This document shows, one piece after another, positions 3,633-6,649 of a stretch of 37,851 bases of DNA. The notes below the pieces were generated by a model. That model searched no databases. It saw only the letters and a list, made by a program, of their open reading frames with translations, and was not told where the DNA came from. Source of the stretch: Elusimicrobiota bacterium (GTDB taxonomy: Bacteria > Elusimicrobiota > Elusimicrobia > Elusimicrobiales > UBA9959); assembly GCA_030651035.1 (NCBI GenBank), contig JAUSCK010000180.1:1-37851 (forward strand), given 5' to 3'. Made by a program: the position numbers and the translations under genes. How positions within the stretch are numbered: position 1 is the stretch's first letter; each line of letters opens with the position of its first letter.

Positions 3633-5186
3633 ATGGGCAAGAAAAAAGTTCTTCTTATCATCAGGGACGGGTGGGGGATGGCCAAGGCCGACAAGTTCAA
3701 CGCCGTGGCCAACGCCAAGACGCCCAACATGGACCGCTACCTCAAAACCTATCCCAACACGGTCCTCGAACCCGCCGGCGAAGCCGTCGGGCTGCCCAAG
3801 GGCTACCAGGGCTCCTCCGAAGTGGGCCACCTCAACATGGGCGCCGGCCGCATAGTGATACAGGAACTCAAGCGCATCATGGACATGATAGAGGACGGAA
3901 CCTTCTTCGGCCGCCCCGCACTTAAAGCCGCACTCGACAACTGCGTAGCTAAAGGCAGCGCCCTCCACCTGATGGGCCTGGTCCAGGACGAAGGCGTGCA
4001 CGCCCACCAGGACCACATGTACGCCATCATGCGCCAGGCAAAGAAGATCGGCATAAAGAAAGTCTACATCCACTTCTTCGCCGACGGCCGCGACACGCCA
4101 CCGCGCAGCGCCCTCAGCTTCCTGAAAATGCTGGAAGAAGTGATCAAAGAGGTTGGCATCGCCTCGGTCGGGACCATAATGGGCCGCTACTATGCCATGG
4201 ACCGCGGCGAAAAATGGAAACTGACCGACCAGACCTATAACGCCATCACCAAGGCAGAAGGCGCCAGGTCCCCAAGCGCCGAAGCCGCCCTCAACGACGC
4301 CTACGCCTCGCTGAAGAACCCCAACGGCCTGCCCATAGTCGACGAATACATCCCCCCCACCATCGTCGGAGATTACCCCGGCATGAAAGACGGCGACTCC
4401 GTGATACATTTCAACTTCCGCCAGGACCGCGCCATACAGCTCACCAAAGACTTCGTGGAAGACACTTACCCCGGCAGCCGCTGGAAGAAAATGGACGTGG
4501 TCTACTGCGGCCTCACCCGCTACTACGACGAGTTTAAGTTCAGCGCCCTCCCCCCCATGGACGAGGGGGGCGGCATGGACAACCTGCTCGGCCAGATCAT
4601 CTCCGAGCGCGGCCTGAAACAGCTGCGCCTCGCCGAGACGCAGAAGTTCAAGCATGTCACCTCCTTCTTCAACGGCAAGCGCACAGAGGCCTACAAGAAC
4701 GAGGACCAGGTGGAAATTAAAGGCACCTGGGACCCCTCCGGCTTCGGCGAGCACCCGGAGATGAACGCCCCCGAGGTCCGCGCGCGCGCCCTCGCGGAAA
4801 TAGCCTCGGAAAAATACGATTTCATAGTCGTTAACTTCGCCAACTGCGACATGGTGGGCCACACCGGCATCTACGACGCCACGGTGAAGGCCGTTGAAGT
4901 GACCGACGCCAGCGTAGGCATGCTGGTGGACGAGGCCCTGAAGCACGCTTACACCGTGATGGTCACCTCCGACCACGGCAACGCCGAGGAGATGTGGAAC
5001 TACAAGCTGGACATGCCCATGACCTCCCACACCACCAATACCGTTGAATTCATCTATATCGCCAAGGACGCCCCGGGCGTGAAGCTGCGCCCGCACGGCA
5101 TCCTTTCGGATATAGCCCCGACGGTGCTGGAAGTGCTGGGCCTGGAGCAGCCTAAGGATATGACGTCGGAGTCGTTGATCTCTTAA
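3633..5186 (+). CDS. gpmI: 2,3-bisphosphoglycerate-independent phosphoglycerate mutase
   Basis: 517 residues, the usual length for GpmI. It interconverts 3- and 2-phosphoglycerate in glycolysis using two Mn ions and a phosphoserine intermediate. Visible family features are RDGWG (metal-binding Asp12), the nucleophile Ser62 in GSSEVGHLNMGAG, FADGRDTPP, NFRQDRAIQLT, FVVNFANCDMVGHTG-type metal ligands near residue 400, and TSDHGNAEEM close to the C-terminus. GAGG lies eight bases before the ATG. The stop codon abuts the ATG of the next gene, so the two are translationally coupled. The long minus-strand open frame opposite this gene is a high-GC shadow. Confidence 0.97.
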   Translation: MGKKKVLLIIRDGWGMAKADKFNAVANAKTPNMDRYLKTYPNTVLEPAGEAVGLPKGYQGSSEVGHLNMGAGRIVIQELKRIMDMIEDGTFFGRPALKAALDNCVAKGSALHLMGLVQDEGVHAHQDHMYAIMRQAKKIGIKKVYIHFFADGRDTPPRSALSFLKMLEEVIKEVGIASVGTIMGRYYAMDRGEKWKLTDQTYNAITKAEGARSPSAEAALNDAYASLKNPNGLPIVDEYIPPTIVGDYPGMKDGDSVIHFNFRQDRAIQLTKDFVEDTYPGSRWKKMDVVYCGLTRYYDEFKFSALPPMDEGGGMDNLLGQIISERGLKQLRLAETQKFKHVTSFFNGKRTEAYKNEDQVEIKGTWDPSGFGEHPEMNAPEVRARALAEIASEKYDFIVVNFANCDMVGHTGIYDATVKAVEVTDASVGMLVDEALKHAYTVMVTSDHGNAEEMWNYKLDMPMTSHTTNTVEFIYIAKDAPGVKLRPHGILSDIAPTVLEVLGLEQPKDMTSESLIS

Positions 5187-5423
5187 ATGTTCATAAAACT
5201 GAAAGTCCACCCCGACTCGCGGCGGGACAAGCTGGTAAAAAAGGCTCCCGACGCCTACGAGATCTGGACCAAGTCCCCGCCCTCGCGGGGCCTGGCCAAC
5301 GCCTCGGCCATACGCCAGCTCTCGCTGGCGCTGGGCATAGAAGCCAAAAAAATAATGCTGATAAAAGGCGCCGCCTCCACCGCCAAAATAGTAAAGATCA
5401 TCTGCCCGGAAATAAAGAAATAA
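5187..5423 (+). CDS. DUF167 (YggU-type) small protein
   Basis: 78-residue cytoplasmic protein of the DUF167/YggU family, an alpha/beta fold with no proven biochemical role. The N-terminal strand IKLKVHPDSRRDKLV, the central KSPPSRGLANASAIRQLS (the PxxGxAN signature) and the end KIMLIKGAASTAKIVKI match the family well. Its ATG directly follows the gpmI TAA, so translation probably depends on ribosomes finishing gpmI. The family is often found beside unrelated housekeeping genes, so the pairing says little about function. Confidence 0.85.
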   Translation: MFIKLKVHPDSRRDKLVKKAPDAYEIWTKSPPSRGLANASAIRQLSLALGIEAKKIMLIKGAASTAKIVKIICPEIKK

Positions 5424-5430
5424 TTTCACA

Positions 5431-5953
5431 GAAGGGACCGCGAGGGCAGGAATGAAAACGCGCCTCGCAAGGGGTGGCGTGGGTATGGGCCCGGCGGGCG
5501 CGCTATCGGCCACACCGTGGCCGCGCTCACCCCTCGGGCATGAACACTGAATTGTGTCGCTCCGCTCCACCCCGCTCTTACGTAAGCTCCGGCCTGCGGG
5601 AAGGCCCGCCGAACCCATACCCTCGCCGCCCTGAAAGCTCGTTGCTAACGGAGGGGGAGACCGCAGGGGCCAGGTTAGCAAAAGCCGCCGGAAGGCGAGG
5701 CTTGCGTAAGCGCCGAGCCTGAGGCAGGCAGGTGAGGCCCGGCAGTGCCGGGCCGCAAGGGCGGAGGCGGTTTTTTACGTAGCAAAACCGCCGAGCCGGG
5801 GCCGAGCAAAGCCGCTATGCGGCTTATGCGTGGCCGCGTACGGTGTACGCGACGCCGGTTTTGCGTTCTGGCCCCTGCGGTAGGCCCCCGAACTTTTCCC
5901 GAAGCGGTCAAAGTTCGGGGCAAGCCCCGACTTCGCATCTCGCGGTCCCCTTT
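5431..5953. other. highly structured 520-bp intergenic element (candidate large ncRNA or palindromic mobile element)
   Basis: No convincing gene lies between 5424 and 6010. The block is bounded by an 11-bp perfect inverted repeat (5434-5444 with 5939-5949). Inside are two nested domains. The left one pairs 5481-5489 with 5614-5622 (9 bp) and 5493-5499 with 5604-5610 (7 bp) around a hairpin at 5507-5523. The right one pairs 5660-5672 with 5869-5881 (13 bp) around perfect hairpins at 5736-5754, 5766-5792, 5809-5825 and 5835-5851. An 11-bp hairpin (5886-5896/5910-5920) follows, and a perfect 10-bp palindrome lies at 5577-5586. I do not recognise RNase P RNA, tmRNA or 6S RNA. Short frames inside it are low-complexity shadows. 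The strand of any RNA is unknown. Confidence 0.6.
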
Positions 5954-6010: not shown

Positions 6011-6649
6011 ATGATAGACCGGAATAACGCGCGGCTGCTGGCTTTGGCCGGCATTATGATCTTTGTCTCCACCATAGCCGTGCTGCTGGCCCGCCAGTTC
6101 AACATAGGCCCCGAGCGCCCCTCGCCGGACTTCCGCACCTTCGGGCCCCGGACCGCCCCCGTCCAGATCTACGAATACACCGACTTCGCCTGCCCCGCCT
6201 GCCGCCACGCCGCCGTCAAGGTGGACGAGATGATAAAAATTTTCGGGCCCGGCCTGCGCGTCAGCTTCAAGCATTACCCGCTGCTCAGGATCCACCCATG
6301 GTCGTTCCACGCCGCCGCCTACGCCGACTGCGCCGGCGAGCAGGGCAAATTCAAGGAATACGGCGACCTCCTGTTCGAGAACCAGGAAAAATGGGCCCAG
6401 ACCAAGGAGAAGCCGAAAGAATTTGAAGACTACGCCGCCCGGCTCAAGCTGGACTGGCCCAAAATGCTGGCCTGTTCGGATTCCCCGGAAACGATCAGGC
6501 GCCTGAAACTCGACATAGCCGAGGCCGACATGAAAGGCGTGAACGCCACGCCCACCTTCTTTATAAACGGCAAGCGCGCCGTGGGCGGCGGCCAGCTGGT
6601 GGACCAGGCCAGGAAATTTGAGAACATACTCAGGGCGGCCAAACCATGA
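6011..6649 (+). CDS. membrane-anchored DsbA-family thiol:disulfide protein
   Basis: 212 residues. A single membrane helix (about residues 8-27) anchors a thioredoxin-like domain outside the cytoplasm. The redox motif is Cys61-Pro-Ala-Cys64 in YEYTDFACPACRHAAV, and the cis-Pro loop is ATPTFFING near residue 180. Between them is the helical insertion typical of DsbA and of the Thioredoxin_4 family (related to BdbD). It would oxidise or isomerise disulfides in exported proteins; the secreted proteases nearby are possible clients, but that is inference. It starts without a ribosome site, six bases after TATAAT. Its stop overlaps the start of the MauE-like gene by four bases, so the pair is coupled. 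Confidence 0.85.
   Translation: MIDRNNARLLALAGIMIFVSTIAVLLARQFNIGPERPSPDFRTFGPRTAPVQIYEYTDFACPACRHAAVKVDEMIKIFGPGLRVSFKHYPLLRIHPWSFHAAAYADCAGEQGKFKEYGDLLFENQEKWAQTKEKPKEFEDYAARLKLDWPKMLACSDSPETIRRLKLDIAEADMKGVNATPTFFINGKRAVGGGQLVDQARKFENILRAAKP

Follow-up and report, generated by a model that had tools for sequence, protein, structure and literature searches.

The double-hairpin elements of mitochondria are GC-rich, kept by pairing, mobile, and insert in one another. The ends of IS200/IS605 elements carry subterminal hairpins, and their movement leaves no target duplication. In bacteria, the closest described systems are the Rickettsia palindromic elements, or RPEs (PMC10969869, PMC3733652), and the palindromic REP/BIME repeats, found in many copies and in inverted pairs behind genes (PMC3733652); RAYTs flanked by TIRs unrelated to REPs have also been described (PMC3733652). 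Searches of the open literature found nothing on such palindromic repeats in the phylum Elusimicrobia, and nothing on nested palindromes; within the literature covered, repeats of this kind seem undescribed in the phylum.

The locus considered here is a block of 523 nt at positions 5431-5953 of the window (the whole stretch of 37,851 nucleotides that was analysed) from an Elusimicrobiota bacterium. It is flanked by a DUF167/YggU gene and a DsbA-like gene, and gpmI, DUF167/YggU, and dsbA are all on the + strand. A first-pass annotation had read the block as one large nested palindromic element, and had proposed that it was either a new structured RNA or a non-autonomous mobile element. The features of the region are as follows, with module ends uncertain by a few nt.

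3633-5186, + strand: gpmI (Pfam PF06415)
5187-5423, + strand: DUF167/YggU gene, the upstream flank, directly after gpmI (Pfam PF02594; synteny in the genus)
5434-5444: GGGACCGCGAG, left arm of the outer terminal inverted repeat, a perfect 11/11 complement of 5939-5949
5463-5636, − strand: left unit, a three-way junction of the GGGTGGCGAGGGTATGGG arm type (covariance model R1, 57.9 bits, E 2.2e-12)
5538-5568: small module of 31 nt within hairpin A of the left unit, missing at G000:C195 and G000:C289
5632-5652: linker joining the inverted units, ending in the left-end motif CGGAGGGG (from sequence; copies C195, C262, C212)
5653-5889, + strand: right unit, a three-way junction of the ACCGCAGGGGCCAG / TTAGCAAAA...TTTTGCGTT type, split by the inner module (R1 matches 5680-5775 and 5778-5894)
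5735-5834, + strand: inner module E3 (TGAGGCCCGGC...ATGCGTGGCC), about 100 nt, in the right unit just before hairpin B
5890-5928: 39-nt hairpin module GAACTTTTCCCGAAGCGGTCAAAGTTCGGGGCAAGCCCC, inserted in the right tail (presence/absence among copies)
5926-5949, + strand: CCCGACTTCGCATCTCGCGGTCCC, the right tail, which includes the right arm of the terminal inverted repeat
6014-6649, + strand: DsbA-like thioredoxin gene, the downstream flank (Pfam PF13462/PF01323)

The helices described by the first-pass annotation are perfect in the outer stem (5434-5444/5939-5949, 11/11), in the left domain (5481-5489/5614-5622, 9/9, and 5493-5499/5604-5610, 7/7), and in the helix closing the right domain (5660-5672/5869-5881, 13/13), and the outer stem and both sub-domains are present in the minimum free energy (MFE) fold of the block. 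The MFE of the + strand is −299.1 kcal/mol, compared with a mean of −247.2 (sd 6.2) for dinucleotide-shuffled sequences (z −8.31; 0 of 100 shuffles as good); that of the − strand is −293.1 kcal/mol (z −8.16; no shuffle as good). The pairing therefore exceeds what GC content gives, as had been claimed. The suggestion that the block contains no gene also held: inspection of its open reading frames, of 82 and 87 aa, revealed no plausible coding frame, and a 747-aa frame on the minus strand is antisense to gpmI. No recognized RNA class was matched at the Rfam gathering score, in keeping with the annotation; the top sub-threshold score was 18.9 bits against a cutoff of 37, and low-threshold matches were rejected as being at chance level only.

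Comparison with other copies indicates how the block was built. A search of its own genome, a fragmented MAG in which many copies lie at contig ends, returned 74 partial matches with break points at a few fixed places. The frame consists of two inverted three-way-junction units closed by tail repeats, with further hairpin modules within it. The left unit has copies elsewhere in the genome at 95-98% identity, and uninterrupted copies of the right unit occur in C36, C154, C210, C257, and C285. The match at G000:C11 spans 423 nt at 91.3% identity, broken by one long gap that coincides with E3 (5735-5834). This composite copy is missing only the inner module of about 100 nt, so the nesting is direct; the same 100-nt gap is found in C36. 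The 39-nt hairpin module is missing in C36, C154, C195, and C257 and present in C262, C88, and C249, and a 25-nt part of the 5538-5568 module was found at many further places. Since there are copies without E3, without 5890-5928, and without 5538-5568, at least three modules lie inside a frame of two units and two tails. In the tails, CCCGACTNNNCATCTCGCGG (allowing at most one mismatch) occurs 13 to 33 times per genome in five genomes, compared with 0 for the reversed control, and a related CCGCGAGATG motif bounds other composites as inverted pairs. Rather than a single-copy RNA, the block is made up of dispersed repeat elements nested in a cluster. The fold described by the first-pass annotation is real, but what was taken as one element is several, each with separate copies elsewhere.

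The three-way-junction unit was defined from 20 copies (own genome and G019), which align with an outer stem whose sequence varies, an internal loop that is conserved (GGnTnAGnAAAAC / GTTTTnCGTTCC), a hairpin A tipped by TTGCGTAA or TTGCATA, and a hairpin B with CACGGTGTG. The covariance model also matches the left unit, which has the other arm sequence (E 2e-12), and both arm types therefore share one build. Among 94 relatives from other genomes, double compensatory changes were found in 33 of 39 base pairs and 95.4% of cells were paired; the covariation score was 0.43, compared with 0.029-0.064 for slid controls, and was reached by 0 of 500 shuffles. These copies were aligned to the covariance model, which favours the structure, but the controls score far lower, and in the unfitted 20-copy alignment RNAalifold found compensatory changes at 23 of 39 pairs. 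Stem sequences vary from unit to unit, with compensatory changes preserving the fold. The check for compensatory changes that the annotation had proposed thus gave a strong and real signal, yet one that is a property of a multi-copy family. Mispairs in the stems are G-T in 142 cases and A-C in 26 (55 and 26 without one conserved wobble pair), counts that come from an alignment fitted by an RNA model.

Copies at other loci, also proposed as a check, extend well beyond this genome, with relatives of the block in 49 of 101 genomes searched. Of 295 genomes of the phylum, 34 contain matches to the covariance model; these come exclusively from five genera in one family of uncultured Elusimicrobia, and each of the carriers listed from the genus itself has at least nine scored matches. 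The exact right-unit pattern was found in at least 116 stretches of a species-level genome collection, where the records with a named taxon are Elusimicrobia or Elusimicrobiales MAGs. Viral contigs, phages, and plasmids gave no match to this pattern, and a phage or plasmid origin was rejected on that basis. The repeat family belongs to one branch of groundwater Elusimicrobia and is dispersed behind genes.

This placement was seen in two sets of loci. Among 46 intergenic regions with element motifs, called with a simple codon-based gene caller (own script) from a sample that includes contigs chosen for carrying copies, 36 are tandem, 9 convergent, and 1 divergent, compared with 305, 54, and 67 among all regions (p 0.004); in 28 of the 36 tandem cases the flank nearer to the element is the upstream gene's 3′ end. 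The corresponding numbers for 80 loci from named MAGs are 55, 18, and 4, compared with 201, 43, and 43 (p 0.005), with the element nearer the upstream 3′ end at 40 of 55 tandem loci; copies in one genome are not independent. The main unit was never found inside genes in either set, and its orientation to transcription is random (24 same and 31 opposite, 80-locus set). Most of 30 genomes retain the gene order gpmI-DUF167-dsbA. Between DUF167 and dsbA the distance is 11-76 bp in many species and 283-594 bp, with differently built folded elements, in G014, G016, G012, G020, G022, G027, and the window; with one genome per species, this between-species comparison shows only filled or short gaps. 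The intergenic 3′ placement, random orientation, and variable syntenic gap point to non-autonomous mobile DNA similar in type to REP, MITE, and RPE sequences, and not to a strand-specific RNA.

Module E3 has sharp ends (GTGAGG and, on the opposite strand, GTCACGC or similar) and occurs in 22 distinct contexts among the loci examined; these contexts comprise, among others, the two unit types and a third element in G022. In that genome, 12 copies of E3 are full length and share 97-100% identity, with different flanks at those that were read; E3 has spread recently there. The third element of G022 has the same ends at lengths of 129, 175, 257, and 303 nt, and the copies that hold E3 (C2, C20, C125, C65) are the 257- and 303-nt forms. 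It is itself palindromic and recently amplified (L399-L448), with ends GCTTCCGGGTTTAGCNTGGGTACGGGCCGG and about GTAGTCCGATAAAATACTGCGCTTGCCGG and 37 matches to one end. E3 replaces about 3 nt at its sites, so that any single case may represent either an insertion or a loss. E3 also lies beside a partial tRNA-like repeat (CGCCCGGCAG...TCGAACC) at the same place in G000, G018, and G022 (L200, L046, L411), which suggests an old shared insertion.

E3 is also found in frame within open helicase-like reading frames (DUF2075-like, by eye) in G000:C141, G022:C124, and G027:C3, and homologous genes without it are present in G019, G005, G028, G025, and G055. The E3-bearing genes also miss host segments, the G000 copy being without its Walker A stretch, and because of these losses they probably encode no functional helicase; mis-assembly at repeats is a possibility in these cases. 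The G000:C141 gene contains, in addition, a different palindromic sequence in three copies (NPNPA...SAMRARPEGVYASRRAPAMRAENFSRSFQA when translated), with the frame still open.

Taken together, we consider it probable that non-autonomous mobile palindromic elements, clustered and nested in one another, make up the block. Of the two options in the first-pass annotation, the mobile one gained from the dispersed copies, the nested insertions together with insert-less copies, the random orientation, the variable and sometimes nearly empty syntenic site, and the burst of near-identical inner-module copies in a relative. The other option, a structured RNA (a cis-regulatory or 3′-UTR element, or a small RNA) present in many copies with a fold acting after transcription, lost ground and now appears quite unlikely. 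Strong compensatory changes, conserved apical and internal loops, a position behind genes, and the excess of G-T over A-C mispairs, which would suit an RNA of that strand, all speak for it, but orientation to flanking genes is random, the minus strand folds equally well, inverted pairs of units are frequent, different species do not share the site, and Rfam has no match. A role as transcription terminators or mRNA 3′ stabilizers, kept by the host and spread by recombination, is very unlikely despite the location near 3′ ends, the enrichment in convergent and depletion in divergent regions, and a pyrimidine- and T-rich stretch after the tail. Many syntenic sites are without any element, ordinary A-stem-T terminators adjoin some copies, a terminator needs no nesting to more than 500 bp, and the position may simply follow from where the host tolerates insertions. 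An assembly artefact, or pairing that arose by chance from high GC, which the many copies at contig ends of a fragmented MAG might suggest, deserves practically no credence given the z of about −8, the covariation, and the same architecture in many separately assembled MAGs.

The nature of the mobilizing enzyme bears on whether these are REP/BIME elements moved by RAYT (Y1 transposase) genes of the same genomes. Y1_Tnp genes are present in 27 of 32 genomes of the genus, the inverted pairing, high copy number, and 3′-end position are BIME-like, and RAYTs with flanking TIRs unrelated to REPs have precedent (PMC3733652). However, in the 1.5 kb around each of 30 RAYT loci the element was found at none, with only three isolated 9-base tail matches; these loci carry inverted repeats of their own, such as AAAAAGGGGACAGGCTACTTTTT. 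Furthermore, G003, G016, G024, and G026, each at least 90% complete, carry the element without a Y1_Tnp match, and GTAG, the REP tag, is found in only 13 of 20 aligned units and partly within the stem. RAYT was rejected as the mobilizer because the element is not at its flanks and it is missing from some carriers, and the REP/BIME reading as a whole is unlikely. As a separate observation, the RAYT/Y1 transposase flanks in the genus (L124-L153) contain inverted repeats, many with GTAGCCTGTCCCC or similar, that represent a separate REP-like family. Composites of about 400 bp are bounded by inverted tails (CCGCGAGATG...CATCTCGCGG), which form terminal inverted repeats; in single units the two ends differ. 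No target duplication was evident by eye at six full composites, and a related element in G022 has one candidate of 8 bp. In five genomes, widely spaced tail pairs enclosed no autonomous partner sharing these ends, and an autonomous copy between distant tails was rejected, with only an XRE/HigB-like pair, ORF6N, DarT-like, or unrelated genes seen there by eye. At L188 2380-3436 (G000:C257), two inverted tail motifs enclose the XRE/HigB-like toxin-antitoxin pair (by eye), as if it were borne by a composite, and two ORF6N-like frames and a DarT-like gene (by eye) are near element copies at L189 (G000:C69). An attC-like reading of GTTAGC was dropped since the consensus does not fit.

For the nested mobile elements that we favour, a model can be proposed in which the folded unit itself is recognized by an enzyme acting in trans, most likely as single-stranded DNA exposed in replication. 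Any copy still able to fold could then be moved, because the fold is what the enzyme would recognize, and selection on a folded movement intermediate may account for the compensatory pairing. An element inserting at the junctions of earlier ones would harm neither host nor fold, and elements would therefore pile up within each other at safe positions behind genes. As a secondary effect, transcription of the upstream gene may meet a barrier in the terminal GC-rich stem. More tentatively, it is possible, if doubtful, that these repeats represent a class of mobile elements defined not by sequence but by a branched fold (a three-way junction, one conserved internal loop, and two conserved apical loops), moved in trans by a non-RAYT enzyme whose targets are the junctions of existing copies, so that nested structures arise. 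A multi-copy family that keeps a branched fold, with compensatory changes at almost all of its pairs, is a rare natural record of the structure that a mobilizing enzyme or host function requires, and it makes the spread of palindromic repeats without an obvious transposase directly testable.

The relationship to known systems is one of partial likeness. Single-strand recognition, as for IS200/IS605, is the working model here, with the difference that no transposase lies between the ends. The mitochondrial double-hairpin elements differ in that the present elements are in a bacterial chromosome and have a three-way junction and conserved loops, and there is no evidence for a common origin. Bacterial MITEs are similarly non-autonomous and dispersed, with inverted ends as seen on the composites, but here no autonomous partner with such ends was found in the five genomes. 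REP/BIME elements are likewise palindromic, in many copies, paired in inverted orientation, and behind genes (PMC3733652), whereas the units here are branched and about 140 nt, compared with 20-40 in REP. They have no consistent unpaired GTAG tag (GGTAG is in 13 of 20 aligned units, with its G and T paired in the stem), and the RAYT genes of these genomes are flanked by other repeats. RPEs share the palindromic form of about 100-150 bp, the restriction to a lineage, and the lack of a known transposase; they differ from the elements here in the three-way-junction build, conserved internal loop, and mutual nesting of the latter. The CGTC tag was not seen at the ends of E3 and the main units are only between genes, but E3 alone is found in frame inside protein genes, as RPEs are, and these cases add an unrelated lineage to the RPE phenomenon. 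The elements work like REP, RPE, and MITE sequences but lack defining features of each.
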